Positions 10,766 to 18,199 of a stretch of 36,599 bases of DNA are shown one piece after another. The position numbers and the translations under genes were made by a program. The stretch spans positions 1 to 36,599 of the IMG/VR virus record IMGVR_UViG_3300028394_000175; one strand, 5' to 3'. The DNA comes from a virus. Every line of letters starts with the position of its first letter. The stretch's first letter is position 1. The notes below the pieces were generated by a model, which saw only the letters and a program-made list of their open reading frames with translations, was not told the origin of the DNA and searched no databases.

Positions 10766-11505
10766 AGGTAATCCGCAAATGGAAAAAGTGGCTGGCGGTC
10801 AGCTGCTCCCACGGGCACCTAGCGAATGCGGCTGCCTGCAAAAGTGCGCTCGAAATGAAGCGTCGGTGGCAGCCGGATACCATTCTGCACTTAGGTGATT
10901 TTCTGGATCTATCTGGGCTGATGGGTAGTGCCCGCAAAGATCCAGACAGCCCAGAGCGATCTACCAGCATACGGGAAGACTTTGACGCAGGGCTAAATTT
11001 CCTACGAGAGCTGGCCCCACAGATCGTATTTGAGGGCAACCATGAGCACCGCCTGACTGCTCTACAATACTCACCATCGGCGATTGTGGCGCACTGCTGC
11101 ACCTCTGCGCTGTCCGAGATCCATAACGCCTGTAAGGATCTGCGGGCGCAGTACGTGCCCTACGACATAGAGAAAGGCTGGCGGGAGCTTGGAGGAACGG
11201 CATTTGGGCACGGCTTTATGTTTTCGGAGGCAGCCGTGCGTGACCATGTAGAAATGCTCCGCAGGCCTGTGGTTATGGGCCACCTACACCGCGTCGATCG
11301 CGTGGCCGGCCGGAGCATCGGTGCGCCGGTGGGCTGGTCGATCGGTTGCTTAGCCGATATCGCCAGCATGCACTACGCCCGGCGCCAGCGGTCGGTTACC
11401 CGGTGGCAGCATGGAGTAGCCTGGGGCGAGTACGCAGAGAGCGGGGAAGGGTGTACGGTGAACGTACTGTCGCCCATAGGAGGCGTGTGGCGATACCCGG
11501 TGTAG
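10762..11505 (+). CDS. Calcineurin-like metallophosphoesterase, 247 aa
   Basis: GTG at 10762 overlaps the preceding TGA. The family motifs appear in order: LGDFLD (Asp46), GNHEHR (residues 92-97), GHGF (149-152) and GHLH (173-176). The first motif, normally DxH with a metal-binding aspartate, reads SCSHGH at 14-19, so Cys15 replaces the Asp while His17 is kept. This could lower activity or change metal preference. Phage homologues are usually annotated as phosphoesterases of unknown substrate; nucleic-acid or nucleotide processing is plausible. Its place after lysis genes and before the regulatory region is unusual for a replication enzyme. Confidence 0.85.
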   Translation: MKVIRKWKKWLAVSCSHGHLANAAACKSALEMKRRWQPDTILHLGDFLDLSGLMGSARKDPDSPERSTSIREDFDAGLNFLRELAPQIVFEGNHEHRLTALQYSPSAIVAHCCTSALSEIHNACKDLRAQYVPYDIEKGWRELGGTAFGHGFMFSEAAVRDHVEMLRRPVVMGHLHRVDRVAGRSIGAPVGWSIGCLADIASMHYARRQRSVTRWQHGVAWGEYAESGEGCTVNVLSPIGGVWRYPV

Positions 11506-11774
11506 ATTGGGCAGCGGCCCTAGACGCCTACGTGGCCGGGGATCGGGAGGAGGTAGTGCCGCCAGGGTGGTTTACAAAAATTGATATCGCAAAGCTGTGG
11601 GGCAAAACGCCGGTCTACACAAACAAGGTTTTAACGCGAATGATGAAATCTGGTGGGGCAGAGAGAAAAGTATTCTCGATCAGAATAAAAATATGCGACC
11701 GAGGCAGTAAAATAGGGCATTGCCGCAGGGTGCCGCACTATCGGCTAACGCCTAGCAAATCACGCAAAAGCTAG
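11487..11774 (+). CDS. Winged-helix/HTH DNA-binding protein, 95 aa
   Basis: The open frame extends upstream to an ATG at 11346, but that would overlap the phosphoesterase by 160 bases. An AGGAGG at 11478-11483 precedes GTG codons at 11485 and 11487, and the 11487 GTG in frame is preferred, though the spacing is short. The core PPGWFTKIDIAKLWGK then VYTNKVLTRMMKSGGAERK is a helix-turn-helix followed by a wing, as in small phage regulators. The C-terminus is basic (RVPHYRLTPSKSRKS). It is the last gene of the rightward late block and is followed by a hairpin; it may regulate late genes or the adjacent switch. Confidence 0.6.
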   Translation: MAIPGVDWAAALDAYVAGDREEVVPPGWFTKIDIAKLWGKTPVYTNKVLTRMMKSGGAERKVFSIRIKICDRGSKIGHCRRVPHYRLTPSKSRKS

Positions 11775-11789
11775 CGTCTATTTTCTTTT
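11748..11789 (+). terminator. Probable intrinsic terminator after the late operon
   Basis: An imperfect stem with arms ACGCCTAGC and GCTAGCGT (one bulged C), loop of 13 bases at 11757-11769, is followed by TCTATTTTCTTTT. It overlaps the convergent 3' ends of the HTH gene and the repressor-like gene, so it may serve the rightward transcript. Confidence 0.45.
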
Positions 11790-11914
11790 GCCAGCTCTTT
11801 CACTAGCAGGGTAGTGATATATGCCGAAAGGGATAATCCGCTTTTTCTAGCCATTCGTTCGCCGTTGCGTTTTACTTTTGGGTCAATAGTCAGGTTAGTT
11901 TTGACCTTCTTCAT
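11771..11914 (-). CDS. Ribbon-helix-helix (Arc/MetJ-type) repressor candidate, 47 aa
   Basis: Start chosen at ATG 11914 (minus strand). The open frame extends to 12013 but that would cover the operator region and give a spurious hydrophobic N-terminus. The protein reads MKKVKTNLTIDPKVKRNGER then MARKSGLSLSAYITTLLVKELAKENRR: a short beta strand (KTNLTID) followed by two helices with the LSLSAYI turn, the classical RHH fold that dimerises and inserts a beta ribbon into the DNA major groove. A well-formed promoter ends seven bases before the ATG, predicting a leaderless mRNA, as for lambda cI from PRM. The leftward orientation beside int and opposite to all lytic genes makes it the best candidate for the lysogeny repressor. 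Confidence 0.7.
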   Translation of the reverse strand: MKKVKTNLTIDPKVKRNGERMARKSGLSLSAYITTLLVKELAKENRR

Positions 11915-11949
11915 AGGGGTCATTGTATGCGTAATAAATACGCATTCAA
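11914..11949 (-). promoter_or_regulatory. Leftward promoter of the RHH repressor, leaderless
   Basis: On the minus strand, TTGAAT (+ strand 11944-11949) and TACAAT (11922-11927) are separated by exactly 16 bases. Transcription would start about seven bases downstream of the -10, at the A of the ATG (11914). The spacer contains a near-perfect palindrome (ATGCGTA...TACGCAT), so a bound protein would block RNA polymerase. Confidence 0.65.
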
Positions 11950-11953
11950 GTTT

Positions 11954-11984
11954 AAAAAGAAAAGTTAATGCCAAAAAGAAAAGT
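11954..11984 (+). repeat. Two 12-bp direct repeats AAAAAGAAAAGT in the switch region
   Basis: Identical copies at 11954-11965 and 11973-11984, offset by 19 bases, lie between the two operator clusters. They may be A-tract upstream elements, binding sites for a second regulator, or bendable DNA allowing looping. Confidence 0.7.
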
Positions 11985-11985
11985 A

Positions 11986-12013
11986 TTGCTAATACGCCGT
12001 GTATGCGTAGCAA
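11986..12013 (+). promoter_or_regulatory. Candidate rightward promoter of the second RHH gene
   Basis: TTGCTA (11986-11991), 16-base spacer, TAGCAA (12008-12013), then six bases to the ATG at 12020. The -10 match is weak. The spacing mirrors the leftward promoter, and the spacer again holds GCGTA-type half-sites. A leaderless or nearly leaderless transcript would result. Confidence 0.4.
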
Positions 12014-12019
12014 AGGCGT

Positions 12020-12181
12020 ATGCCTCGCCGACCACTCAGCGGTTTAAAGTCTGAAAAGACCAACATTGTTCTTCCAGTTAGAGTGAAAAAGGCGTCACAA
12101 AAATTGGCCGCTATTCGTCGGTTATCACTTTCTCAGCTTATTACCCAACTGCTCGCCAGAGCCGCAGGAGAGCAAAGCTAG
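12020..12181 (+). CDS. Second ribbon-helix-helix regulator (Cro-like candidate), 53 aa
   Basis: ATG at 12020 overlaps the last GCGTA half-site. The sequence MPRRPLSGLKSEKTNIVLPV then RVKKASQKLAAIRRLSLSQLITQLLARAAG has the RHH pattern: strand TNIVLPV, helix, LSLSQLI turn, helix. It is the divergent counterpart of the 47-aa protein and shares the KTN-strand and LSLS motifs, so the two may have arisen by duplication. It is the first rightward gene, followed by an excisionase-like gene. A Cro-like early lytic regulator is the natural reading, by position only. The gene is easily missed because of its length. Confidence 0.65.
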   Translation: MPRRPLSGLKSEKTNIVLPVRVKKASQKLAAIRRLSLSQLITQLLARAAGEQS

Positions 12182-12187
12182 ACATTT

Positions 12188-12553
12188 ATGAGCTCAGTGC
12201 GTCTCAACGATACGGCCATGAATCTGCGGAAGCAGGATCGAGCTCTTTCACTTCGCCAATTAGGTGCCGCTTACGGCCTTGGCTATGTGCGGATTAAGCA
12301 AATGCGGGAACTGTCAGGCTTTCCGCTGATTGCTGGGAAGATAATGCCCTCTGACTTTGATAAGTGGAGGCTGATGCAGACTGGCCTAAATTCACCGCGT
12401 CCCGCAGATCGTCTACGCAGTGCCGCTGGTAAAGCTCATGCACTAGCGTCGAGGAGTGATTCACAAGTCTCATGGCGACAGATTGAGAGCAGCCTGAAAG
12501 CCGCAGTCGAGTCACTCGGGTTACCCGGAGCGAATGAAAGCAGTGACGCTTAA
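12188..12553 (+). CDS. Excisionase/HTH-like protein, 121 aa, overlapping int in antisense
   Basis: ATG at 12188 follows the RHH gene by six bases. Residues about 18-60 (LSLRQLGAAYGLGYVRIKQ, then MRELSGFPLIAGKIMPSDF and DKW) match the winged-helix pattern of MerR-like excisionases and small DNA-binding proteins, with a final helix entering via PSDFDKW. The rest (from about residue 65) has low-complexity S/A/R composition and lies antisense to the int 3' end, with 260 bases of overlap. Its place beside int and in the first rightward operon supports a directionality factor. The C-terminal half may be dispensable. Confidence 0.55.
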   Translation: MSSVRLNDTAMNLRKQDRALSLRQLGAAYGLGYVRIKQMRELSGFPLIAGKIMPSDFDKWRLMQTGLNSPRPADRLRSAAGKAHALASRSDSQVSWRQIESSLKAAVESLGLPGANESSDA

Positions 12554-13391
12554 GCCCGCAAATGTTGAGCAGGCGACGCCAGCAAAGCGAGGCTCGCGTG
12601 CTGGGCACGATGCAAGTGACCTCGCGTCCCTCGGCCTTCATTCTGGCGAGCATCGGTTCGATAGCGGCCGGGATAGGGATGCTAAAAGATTTGCCCGTGC
12701 CACCCTTGGGGCAGGGGAACGTAAGGATGCGGTTCTTCAGATCCACGCAATCAAGCGGGATCTGCGTCTCACGAAGTCGGCAGCCAGTAGCCAGGGCAAT
12801 CTCAAAGCTAACTTTCATCCATTCGGGCACGCCTTCCACGGCCAAAGCCTTCCGGGTAATTTTTATTTCATTGTCCGAAAAGACGGGTTTTACGCGGGCT
12901 ATCGGGCCCCTTTTAATTCTGTAATCCAAAAGGGCAACGGAGTCCATTTTGCCGAGCAGTCGTCCTTGGCGGTGAATCCATTTAAGAATCTTCAGATCTT
13001 GGCAGGCTTGGTTGCGTCCAGCCTTGCCGCCGGACGTGCGGGGAAGGCTTTGGCGCCATCGCAAATAAATCTCACAATCATTTGCAGAAAACGCTTGCAA
13101 GGTTGTTTTTTTCTCACTAATAAATCTCGCCAGATGACGCCACGAATTTTTGTAATAAACTTTTGTCAGAGGGCAAACGGGGTGATTTTCAATCAAATCA
13201 TCAACCCAGTCGTGGCCGCAATCTTTTCGCTTTTCGTTAACGCCAAGTCGGGCTGCGTCAGCCGTTGCCTTTGCGCGATGCAGAGTATTGTCGATTCGGT
13301 AGCGGGTGCTTTTGCTACGCCATTTTCCAGTCGGGTCTTTAAAACGTATAAAGAACCAAGGGCTGCCGCGTTTCTGGTAAGAATACGCCAT
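12294..13391 (-). CDS. int: Tyrosine recombinase integrase, 365 aa
   Basis: ATG at 13391 on the minus strand. The N-terminus SYQKRGSPWFFIRFKDPTGK is the usual three-stranded arm-binding domain, residues about 65-150 a SAM-like core-binding domain, and 170-335 the catalytic domain. Catalytic residues are visible: Arg205 in ATGCRLRE, Lys229 in the beta hairpin, His286 and Arg289 in HSLRVTR, His312 in VNHSS and Tyr321 in HELYQRH. It would recombine the tRNA-Ser-type attP about 80 bases upstream of its start with the host copy. Its 3' end is convergent with and overlaps the excisionase-like gene, so rightward transcription makes RNA antisense to int. Confidence 0.93.
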   Translation of the reverse strand: MAYSYQKRGSPWFFIRFKDPTGKWRSKSTRYRIDNTLHRAKATADAARLGVNEKRKDCGHDWVDDLIENHPVCPLTKVYYKNSWRHLARFISEKKTTLQAFSANDCEIYLRWRQSLPRTSGGKAGRNQACQDLKILKWIHRQGRLLGKMDSVALLDYRIKRGPIARVKPVFSDNEIKITRKALAVEGVPEWMKVSFEIALATGCRLRETQIPLDCVDLKNRILTFPCPKGGTGKSFSIPIPAAIEPMLARMKAEGREVTCIVPSTRASLCWRRLLNICGLKRHCFHSLRVTRVTRLRLSGCSQSVAMRLVNHSSTLVHELYQRHCVDDLRDAVNLGQSASASTYQSQRALSSQQSAESLTVPAFA

Positions 13392-13407
13392 GGTGATAAC
13401 GGTAACA

Positions 13408-13435
13408 TTTACTTAGTTTGACGCAATAATATACT
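13408..13435 (+). promoter_or_regulatory. Possible rightward promoter just upstream of attP
   Basis: TTTACT (13408-13413), 16-base spacer, TATACT (13430-13435). The -10 is a good match, the -35 a fair one. Transcription would begin near 13442, inside the small open frame and before the attP core. It could equally be a chance AT-rich stretch in the int-attP interval. Confidence 0.3.
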
Positions 13436-13678
13436 ATGACCTCCCAAAGCATAATAGATCAAATCGAATCAGGTAATTGTACCGTGGGTTCAAATCCCAC
13501 CCCGTCCGAGGCTTATCACTACAACGACTTACGCCGAGATGGTTACACGGCTGTAGCAACTGAATCCAAGCTAAAGCATTACCAGCAAAATTCCTTTTTA
13601 ATTCGCGGCGGGTATCCGGCGGAGCCCGCTTACCACCCTAACCCCTCCGTCGCCCGCATGTGGAGCGCCCAACGATGA
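13436..13678 (+). CDS. Open frame running through attP, up to 80 aa
   Basis: ATG at 13436; the frame reads through the tRNA-derived core (GNCTVGSNPTPS) and continues to a TGA at 13676 that overlaps the next ATG. Downstream residues (SEAYHYNDLRRDGYTAVAT, SKLKHYQQNSFLIRGG) look like genuine protein, but there is no in-frame ATG after the core; GTG 13484 inside the T arm is the only other start. Either the gene truly spans attP and is broken by integration, or only its downstream part is an evolutionary remnant. No family recognised. Confidence 0.45.
   Translation: MTSQSIIDQIESGNCTVGSNPTPSEAYHYNDLRRDGYTAVATESKLKHYQQNSFLIRGGYPAEPAYHPNPSVARMWSAQR
13472..13508 (+). other. attP: attP core: 3' end of a tRNA-Ser gene
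   Basis: The sequence folds as the 3' part of a tRNA with long variable arm. GGTA-ATTG-TACC (13472-13483) is a perfect variable-arm hairpin. GTGGG-TTCAAAT-CCCAC (13484-13500) is a five-pair T arm with canonical TTC loop. CCCGTCC (13501-13507) is the acceptor 3' strand and G13508 the discriminator. The long variable arm and G discriminator indicate tRNA-Ser; the host acceptor 5' strand should read GGACGGG. No 5' half of a tRNA is present, so this is not a functional gene. It lies about 80 bases upstream of int. Integration here would restore the host tRNA. The 5' limit of the identity segment cannot be fixed without the host. Confidence 0.88.
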
Positions 13679-16325: not shown

Positions 16326-16738
16326 GGATGCTGCTTTCGTTCATCGCCCTATTGGGATTTACAACCACAAAGCTAGGCAACGCACTGATCGATTTGCGCC
16401 CGATCGCTAAGAAGATCGACGTAAAGAAAATCAAGGTTCGGATTACTGGCTACTGGCCCGGCGAGGACGAGTGGAGCAGCCGCTACCAATCGAGCACCGG
16501 CACACGCCTGCGGGCTGGCCGTCACTGCGCCGTCGATCCGGACATCATTCCGCTGTGGAGCAAGATCCGCGTGATGGGCGGAAAGCGGGAGTGGGTGGCC
16601 GTGGATACTGGCACGGCAGTAAAGAGCAAGAAGGCGAGCGGTGGAAAGTTGCCCGTGGTGGACGTGTTTGCTGCTAGTGAAAAGCAGTTTAACGCAATGC
16701 GGTTGCCAAGGGTGGCAACGGTGGAGGTGATGAAGTGA
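16322..16738 (+). CDS. Exported 3D-domain (double-psi beta-barrel) protein, 138 aa
   Basis: ATG at 16322 overlaps the previous stop. The start MRMLLSFIALLGFTTTKLGNA resembles a signal peptide or anchor. Then follows ITGYWPGEDEW and the three-aspartate pattern of the 3D domain: AVDPDIIPLWSKIRV (Asp72), WVAVDTGTA (Asp95) and LPVVDVF (Asp114). This barrel is shared with MltA/RlpA-type lytic transglycosylases and acts on peptidoglycan glycan strands. A wall-active enzyme within a replication operon, far from the lysis cassette, is unusual; it might remodel the envelope early in infection or exclude superinfecting phage. Confidence 0.75.
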   Translation: MRMLLSFIALLGFTTTKLGNALIDLRPIAKKIDVKKIKVRITGYWPGEDEWSSRYQSSTGTRLRAGRHCAVDPDIIPLWSKIRVMGGKREWVAVDTGTAVKSKKASGGKLPVVDVFAASEKQFNAMRLPRVATVEVMK

Positions 16739-17016
16739 GCACAAAAGCCGCCACGTTCGCCTCTAAACGCAATCGGGCCGCTGGTCTTGGCGATACACGG
16801 CCGACGTTCCGCCGCTTGGGCGTGATCGTTGGGAAGTTGCGCCGGGATCTGTGCCTGCCCAGCTCTGCCCGGTTGGGCGTAGAGCTTGAATGCAGCTACA
16901 AAACGATTCAGCGGGACATCGACTTGCTCAGAGATTTCTTTGGCTACCCGCTAGAATACGACGCCCGCAAGTACCACTACAAGCTGGCGGGGCCGCTGCC
17001 GAAGGCGGTGCTGTGA
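16735..17016 (+). CDS. WYL/DeoR-type helix-turn-helix protein, 93 aa
   Basis: GTG at 16735 overlaps the previous TGA as GTGA. Residues about 25-88 (RRLGVIVGKLRRDLCLPSSA, then ELECSYKTIQRDIDLLRDFF, and YPLEYDARKYHYKL) match the winged-helix N-terminal domain of WYL/DeoR-type regulators almost end to end, but the ligand-binding WYL domain is missing. A stand-alone winged helix may control early genes or help replication initiation. Confidence 0.7.
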   Translation: MSTKAATFASKRNRAAGLGDTRPTFRRLGVIVGKLRRDLCLPSSARLGVELECSYKTIQRDIDLLRDFFGYPLEYDARKYHYKLAGPLPKAVL

Positions 17017-17141
17017 GCCTGCAGGAACTATTAACCATGTTCTCCGGCCGCGTCATCGGTACTTACACGCCGAAGCAGTACGCCAACTGTGTGCGAGAGG
17101 CCCGCGCCAATCGCATGCGCTGGGGAATGGGGCAGTGGTGA
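17013..17141 (+). CDS. Small basic protein, 42 aa
   Basis: GTG at 17013 overlaps the previous stop, and the TGA at 17139 overlaps the next GTG. The peptide VSLQELLTMFSGRVIGTYTP then KQYANCVREARANRMRWG is basic with a C-terminal helix. A longer in-frame reading from 16890 would overlap the WYL-like gene and is not preferred. Function unknown. Confidence 0.5.
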   Translation: MSLQELLTMFSGRVIGTYTPKQYANCVREARANRMRWGMGQW

Positions 17142-18199
17142 GTCAATTAGCTCAGTCATGTCTTTTTGGATCTCATGGACAGCATTATGTTAATTTGGGT
17201 CTGTCACGAAGGGTAACACAAGAAGATGTTGGCAGATCTGTCGGAGTAGGCCCGACTACCGTTGACCGATGCTTAAAGGGTATTGGCGATCCTAAAACCA
17301 TAGAAGCAGTTAAAGAAGCCGCAGAAAGGCTGGGCTATCAAAGGATCAATAAATGGGCATCAATAAAAAAAGAGTTTATTAAAGGATATAACCTATCCGG
17401 CAGTCCAATTCTTGATGAAGAGGCAATATGTATTCTGAGGTCAAGAGGAAACCATGCTCGGTCAATTTCACAAATAACAGGAATAGCTACTGTTCGCTTA
17501 AAAAAGATATTCCAAAAAAATCGTCTTTGCACAGAAAACTTGCAAGCCATTAAAGAAAACGGGCTTTCAAAAAGACAACAGATTGAAGTTAAAATGCTTA
17601 ATAAAGAAAGGGCAGAATTAAATGAGGCAAGACAATATCAGGAAAAGAGGTCTGAGCTTAGAGACTTAATTTGTAAAATTATAAAGAACTACAAAAAAGG
17701 TGTTCCCATAGAAAAAATAGCGCGGGAACTAAAAATAAATAAAACCCTAGCTTTTAGATGTGCTTACAGAACCAAGTCATATTTTCTAATAAAAAAAAGA
17801 AGGGTTATTAAAAAGAGAACCGGGTCGGCTACAACAAGCACGTATTCAAGTTTCTATACCAGAGAATCTGACATGACCAACGCTGTACATGAAGAACTAA
17901 AACGTAGGTATCCTAATTGTTACATAGAAAAAGAATATCCAATCACAGAAACATTCTTTGGAAACCGCGTCAGGCACATTCGTGCTGATTTTGTTATTAA
18001 ACAACCAACAGCCAAACCTGTGGCTATTGAGGTAAAATACTCGACATCTACTAATTCAATTAAAGTGCTTCTTGGCCAAATCCTTATTAACAAAACCTGC
18101 GGTTACGATGTTGAATGCGTTTTTCCAAAAGATGCCTTTCTTTCTGATTTTTGCGAAAAGATGTTGCAAGATAACAATGTTGGTTATTGGACTGTATGA
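17138..18199 (+). CDS. LacI-type HTH fused to a PD-(D/E)XK nuclease, 353 aa, AT-rich insertion
   Basis: GTG at 17138 overlaps the previous TGA; GTG 17135 is an alternative that adds one residue (numbering here uses 17135). Residues 27-68 (VTQEDVGRSVGVGPTTVDRC, then a helix ending AAERLGY) are a LacI-family helix-turn-helix. Two more HTH-like segments follow at about 108-130 (ISQITGIATVRLKKIF) and 188-210 (GVPIEKIARELKINKTLAF). Residues about 245-330 form a nuclease core: RHIRADFVI (Asp285), PVAIEVKYS (Glu299, Lys301) and VLLGQILI (Gln315). The effector-binding domain of LacI is absent. Base composition is far more AT-rich, with Lys/Ile/Asn codons, than both flanks, while stop-start coupling is kept. 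It may be a site-directed nuclease, a superinfection or anti-competitor factor, or a homing-type element. No described family is recognised for the whole. Confidence 0.8.
   Translation: MSQLAQSCLFGSHGQHYVNLGLSRRVTQEDVGRSVGVGPTTVDRCLKGIGDPKTIEAVKEAAERLGYQRINKWASIKKEFIKGYNLSGSPILDEEAICILRSRGNHARSISQITGIATVRLKKIFQKNRLCTENLQAIKENGLSKRQQIEVKMLNKERAELNEARQYQEKRSELRDLICKIIKNYKKGVPIEKIARELKINKTLAFRCAYRTKSYFLIKKRRVIKKRTGSATTSTYSSFYTRESDMTNAVHEELKRRYPNCYIEKEYPITETFFGNRVRHIRADFVIKQPTAKPVAIEVKYSTSTNSIKVLLGQILINKTCGYDVECVFPKDAFLSDFCEKMLQDNNVGYWTV

Follow-up and report, generated by a model that had tools for sequence, protein, structure and literature searches.

A putative lysogeny-control module of two ribbon-helix-helix proteins and a predicted winged-helix protein beside the integrase gene of an undescribed phage group

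Two divergent genes for small ribbon-helix-helix (RHH) proteins, RHH1 and RHH2, and the downstream gene G3 very probably constitute, together with the convergent integrase gene int, the lysogeny module of the phage analysed here, to judge by the sequences compared (Table 1). The fuller reading, in which the block RHH1, O1-O2 and RHH2-G3, convergent with int, controls lysogeny with the polarity and the role of G3 proposed below, is the one we favour, with moderate confidence. It draws on gene order, the relationship of the two RHH proteins, the positions of the operators, their conservation and covariation, and the recurrent absence of the block; the pairing of proteins with operators, the polarity of the switch, the leaderless transcripts and the function of G3 are what we infer.

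The window, i.e. the whole 36,599-bp stretch analysed (an IMG/VR virus record), carries phage genes along its entire length, and family profile matches identify a terminase, a portal, a major head protein, an endolysin, a primase, an exonuclease and an integrase. Searches of named phages with int, RHH1 and G3 gave zero matches, and the large group to which the phage belongs is, by this comparison, undescribed and without relatives in the set of named phages covered. Its relatives are metagenomic contigs (RHH1 was compared by alignment in the viral ones), and no prophage with host flanks was found among them. The only relative in genome collections was a 52% integrase match in a Verrucomicrobia MAG, on a cut-off contig, which suggests that the host is probably a verrucomicrobium.

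Table 1. Features of the proposed module and its surroundings (positions in the window)
Feature	Position	Strand	Description
RHH1	11771..11914	-	47-aa ribbon-helix-helix protein; proposed lysogenic repressor, with a Mnt/CI-like role
P_RHH1	11922..11949	-	TTGAAT - 16 bp - TACAAT, 7 nt before ATG; from a consensus scan
O1	11928..11944		17-bp palindrome TGCGT-N7-ACGCA (TGCGTAATAAATACGCA); fills the P_RHH1 spacer
P_RHH2	11986..12013	+	TTGCTA - 16 bp - TAGCAA, 6 nt before ATG
O2	11993..12020		half-sites 11993-11997, 12005-12009 and 12016-12020, 11-12 bp apart across P_RHH2
RHH2	12020..12181	+	53-aa ribbon-helix-helix protein; first gene of the RHH2-G3 operon; proposed Arc/Cro-like role
G3	12188..12553	+	predicted winged-HTH protein; proposed excisionase/lytic effector
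int	12294..13391	-	tyrosine integrase, convergent with and overlapping G3; Pfam PF00589; phrog_1, E 1.7e-26
attP core (probable)	13482..13508	+	resembles a tRNA T-arm and 3' end (CCGTGGGTTCAAATCCCACCCCGTCCG)

The two RHH genes and the gap between them

The first-pass annotation had described a 47-aa leftward and a 53-aa rightward RHH protein diverging over 105 bp, and open reading frames, sizes and gap were all as it stated. By model and profile, both proteins belong to the MetJ/Arc/CopG superfamily, with a strand followed by two helices in about 45-55 aa. RHH1 matched the Arc-like PHROG 582 (phrog_582) with E = 1e-4, and in its single-sequence model (pLDDT 86.7) two helices (12-25 and 29-46) come after an extended N-terminus, the beta strand not being formed in this monomer. 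The best solved matches of the model in Foldseek were CopG and Arc, with a high probability but an E of only about 0.1, owing to the small size of the protein. For RHH2, the family profile matched a solved CopG-family RHH chain (E = 0.0025). Pfam matches of the two proteins fell under the curated cut-offs, and RHH1 gave sub-threshold profile matches to CcdA and HicB. The RHH assignment of both proteins was thus upheld, by the model and the CopG/Arc fold matches for RHH1 and by the profile for RHH2. Both genes are under purifying selection (pN/pS of 0.11 for RHH1 and 0.19 for RHH2).

The two profiles match each other over 42 columns (97% probability, E = 4e-11). A tree built from 22 sequences of several phage lineages separates every RHH1 from every RHH2 with 99/99 support. 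Both results make the duplication suggested in the first pass plausible and point to old paralogues. The idea of RHH2 as a late addition was dropped: loss is likelier than late gain, because the RHH1 of a lineage without RHH2 (see below) nests with that of the window.

The gap contains five GCGTA half-sites, at 11929(+), 11939(-), 11993(-), 12005(+) and 12016(+), out of 71 in the full 36.6 kb. A genome of this composition should contain 0.15 clusters of at least three half-sites within 45 bp, and the RHH1-RHH2 gap holds the only one found; the five sites noticed earlier are real, and their grouping is not due to chance. Their assignment to one cluster per promoter was also correct, with O1 in the spacer of P_RHH1 and the three half-sites of O2 across P_RHH2. 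The O1 palindrome scored 37, versus maxima of about 7-12 in shuffled sequences. Among 50 distinct sequences, the half-site columns are 97.6% conserved versus 81.7% for the other intergenic columns (p = 4e-7), and they are the most conserved DNA of the gap.

P_RHH1 came from a consensus scan in which the number of such matches in the region was about the same as in shuffles; the distance from its -10 box to the ATG is kept at 6-8 nt in relatives, so that the RNA would start at the start codon or within 1-2 bases of it. P_RHH2 was too weak to be detected in a generic promoter scan; in relatives of operator classes A and B (see below) its -35 box stays 34 nt before the ATG, as the variants TTGCTA, TGGACA or TTGACG. 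Both transcripts look leaderless in these predictions.

A scan of near-complete class-A relatives for further operators outside the RHH1-RHH2 gap gave none, early genes included, and in the other lineages the only one was an exact palindrome inside the G3 gene of one phage (L400). A half-site cluster in four class-B genomes (G007 6280 and its equivalents), considered as a third operator, falls within a glycosyltransferase coding sequence and was dismissed as a coincidence of the coding DNA.

G3, the integrase and neighbouring genes

The first-pass annotation took the two RHH proteins for the whole switch. This was not supported: G3, which starts 6 bp after RHH2 and in the same direction, is kept even in the lineage without RHH2. 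In L175, a member of that lineage, an O2-like promoter would drive G3 directly, which is why G3 looks like the output. The G3 model is a winged HTH with a pLDDT of about 90 for residues 11-60; its fold matches were weak and to generic winged helices. Residues 1-65 (12188-12382) are under purifying selection (pN/pS 0.20-0.25), and for residues 66-121, which are antisense to int, pS is 0.003 versus a pN of 0.16, so that selection of their own is absent. This C-terminal half of G3 (12383-12553) is antisense integrase, and a G3 profile can falsely match integrases: the G3 profile match in the host MAG was antisense integrase and not G3. Family searches (Pfam, PHROGs, NCBIfam) gave no match, no known excisionase among them, and a profile match in the PDB was not meaningful. 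With its predicted winged-HTH fold and a gene adjoining that of a tyrosine integrase, the modelled G3 resembles directionality factors such as Xis, Cox or RdfS in fold and gene position.

The probable attP core is kept, with variable flanks, in the relatives of int. It was found exact in 83 viral contigs, including unrelated phages, 64-kb ones among them; a few relatives (L018, L039 and L070) have another tRNA-like core in its place. The host attB was not found: none of 388 genomes from the phylum contained the core, and 15 further contigs that do carry it showed no tRNA. Directly upstream of the int start lies a conserved GGTAACATTT (13391-13410), which many relatives have within an inverted repeat GTTAC-N4-GTAAC; it may be an integrase arm site or a regulator site.

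Three other genes were considered as regulators. A wHTH-like gene between the phosphoesterase gene and RHH1 (11490-11774) is present in all relatives compared, with 31 to 99% identity; it was rejected as a toxin or repressor, being kept in phages that lack the module. The HTH_11 gene at 16735-17016 was likewise discarded as a lysogeny repressor, as module-less relatives reaching this region keep it. The low-GC gene at 17135-18199 has a LacI-like HTH at its N-terminus; its product was not retained as the primary repressor because it is absent from all 30 relatives compared, and the gene is probably a private insertion of the window.

Conservation, exchange and absence of the module

An integrase search yielded 76 loci, and nearly all those reaching the region keep RHH1 divergent from RHH2-G3, with the latter convergent with int. 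The RHH1-RHH2 pair beside int, which the first pass had proposed to look for in relatives, was found in about 70 viral contigs. A further lineage, with int about 53% identical (L381, L383, L386, L391, L393, L400 and L451), has the same order, and most of its members repeat the 17-bp geometry of O1. In the 64-kb phages L291-L293 (L293 being represented by a 39-kb piece), a candidate RHH gene and a G3 homologue are transcribed divergently, the latter convergent with int; the candidate, recognized by eye only, gave no RHH profile match. Two GGTGTnnnACACC palindromes, which would be a different but equally local operator, lie between the candidate RHH gene and G3 and nowhere else in these records. 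RHH2 is absent from a sister lineage (L175, L217, L218 and L219), where an operator with half-sites of the same type stands directly before G3; the contig ends beside the module in this group were not taken as a biological junction, being probably due to a poly-C tract. An RHH gene divergent from G3, itself convergent with int, would be the common core, because it is kept in the RHH2-less, 64-kb and 53% lineages.

The half-sites fall into classes. In class A, GCGTA goes with the RHH strands TNLTI (RHH1) and TNIVL (RHH2), and in class B (six phages) TGCGC goes with TNIYL and TNLYL. In L050 and L066, two related phages only, the RHH2 strand alone is changed (AYILIP), O2 being GCGCA and O1 mixed. 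Operator classes and recognition strands thus change together. Class B is scattered on the flanking-gene tree (6 rows, 5 changes), and its RHH2 proteins are 74-76% identical to the RHH2 of a different phage lineage versus 59% to that of the window. The cassette is exchanged as a unit, as expected for an immunity-type exchange. Class-B loci (e.g. L025 7590-8112) also carry an extra leftward ORF behind RHH1, with a signal-peptide-like start and no family match, which is possibly expressed from the prophage.

The module is lacking in 8 of the 62 contigs that allow a call. Its absence is scattered on the flanking-gene tree (8 rows, 8 changes, at least 7 of them forced by starred branches); these changes cover exchanges as well as losses, given possible recombination among neighbouring genes. 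Of all the genes in the window, RHH1, RHH2, G3 and int are the only ones absent as a group. Such a joint absence is predicted by a self-contained lysogeny module and argues against a separate lysogeny-specific repressor; no such rival was evident, since no other gene of the window was lost together with int, and on this point the first-pass annotation stands. The junctions differ: the module is cleanly replaced by another gene in G028 and G029, an int remnant (residues 62-126) persists in G030-G032, L075 retains int 1-126, RHH1 16-47 is fused near int 115 in L076, and in L063 int is kept to residue 341. In G028, G029 and G033 (contigs of L120, L123 and L141), the site of the module is occupied by a different gene, which encodes a protein with an RWCP..WPP-type motif at its start.

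A proposed switch and its alternatives

In the prophage, RHH1 would be made and, bound to O2, would keep the RHH2-G3 operon off. In the manner of P22 Arc, RHH2 would, once the operon fires, close P_RHH1 through O1 and limit its own operon. G3 would execute the exit from lysogeny, most likely as the recombination directionality factor of the adjacent integrase, and possibly as a lytic regulator as well. The direct control of the early promoter implied in the first pass finds no support in the sequence: the scan of near-complete class-A relatives gave no copies of the operator at early genes. The early genes start on the far side of int and the attP core, which in an integrated prophage places them at the other end from the switch, and module-less phages keep them, which means that they have another promoter. 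The silence of the lytic genes in a lysogen is, with the operators found, not explained by RHH binding. A rather doubtful solution would be that the RHH/RHH/wHTH cassette is the only lysogeny regulator of a widespread clade of tailed phages, represses a single exit operon and never the early promoters, and that the early genes are silenced through an integration-linked route and not by a repressor.

Several observations go against lysogeny control by the module. With no operator outside the gap, RHH1 has no visible direct hold on the early genes; G3 matches no known excisionase and only generic winged helices; L063 keeps most of int, to the residue given above, without RHH1, RHH2 and G3; and the contigs are metagenomic, the viability of the module-less ones as phages being an assumption. 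It is possible, if on the whole unlikely, that the module controls only integration and excision, with G3 as directionality factor, RHH1 and RHH2 timing G3, and a different, unrecognized repressor silencing the lytic genes. The location of the operators, solely at the RHH2-G3 and RHH1 promoters, would fit, as would the position of the module next to int and its absence jointly with it. A wHTH protein encoded beside a tyrosine integrase is often a directionality factor (RdfS, PMC11963761), and Apl of phage 186 is a small protein that is both excisionase and switch regulator (PMC7498355). Against this, no other gene was lost with the module (16735-17016 is kept where module-less relatives reach it, and 17135-18199 occurs in the window only), and the exchange of cassettes with changed operator specificity looks like immunity.

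P22 immI provides the closest design. Its layout is Mnt divergent from Arc-Ant, with the 53-aa Arc made ahead of Ant (PMC7549136, PMC8022706); of the two repressors, Mnt is active in lysogeny and Arc during the lytic cycle (PMC7549136). The likeness lies in two small RHH repressors, one of which (53 aa in both) heads an operon with an effector. Unlike immI, the module adjoins int and is the only recognizable lysogeny regulator, a predicted wHTH protein, and not the antirepressor Ant, is encoded downstream, and the two transcripts are predicted to be leaderless. By analogy, it would work like immI without being a member. The layout (lysogenic RHH, lytic RHH, effector, as in mnt, arc and ant) could also mean a secondary immunity region in which G3 is an antirepressor directed against a primary repressor encoded elsewhere. 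We consider this improbable, as the window shows no recognizable immC-type repressor/Cro pair, as no other gene is co-lost (an unfamiliar repressor could escape recognition), and as G3 has a predicted DNA-binding fold. Most improbable of all is a role of RHH1 outside lysogeny, as a CcdA/HicB-like antitoxin or as a copy regulator of the plasmid type: the sub-threshold CcdA and HicB profile matches are offset by a 47-aa form without a C-terminal toxin-binding tail, by the persistence of the adjacent 11490-11774 gene in module-less phages, and by the linkage to operator and int across lineages.

The lysogeny-control reading can be set against other known switches. As in phage 186 (CI/Apl) and P2 (C/Cox), where the repressor gene is next to a small excisionase/regulator gene, the repressor gene adjoins that of a small protein, G3, proposed to be an excisionase; here, the repressor is RHH and not HTH, an extra RHH gene precedes G3, and no similarity of G3 to the profiles searched was detected. 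With lambda CI/Cro, the module would share divergent promoters, common operators and two mutually opposed DNA-binding proteins; it is not of the lambda type, differing in its RHH proteins in place of HTH, in the third gene G3 in the operon, and in that early-promoter operators were not found (class-A relatives, other lineages and the 64-kb lineage having been scanned). In the archaeal fusellovirus SSV1, the RHH protein F55 keeps the lysogenic state (PMC5569661). F55 binds several early promoters plus its own, whereas here the operators are only at the module's own divergent promoters, there are two RHH proteins, and the host is bacterial.

Most known phages control dormancy with repressors other than RHH pairs. 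RHH repressors of tailed phages are known mainly from the secondary region of P22, and as the main repressor from an archaeal virus. To judge from the sequences compared, a large phage group here seems to have a pair of RHH proteins as its principal lysogeny regulator. Since operators were not found at the early promoters, one may ask how a prophage of this kind is kept silent. The natural variants, i.e. three operator classes, an RHH2-less lineage, module-less relatives and exchanged cassettes, make the specificity and the evolution of the switch directly testable.
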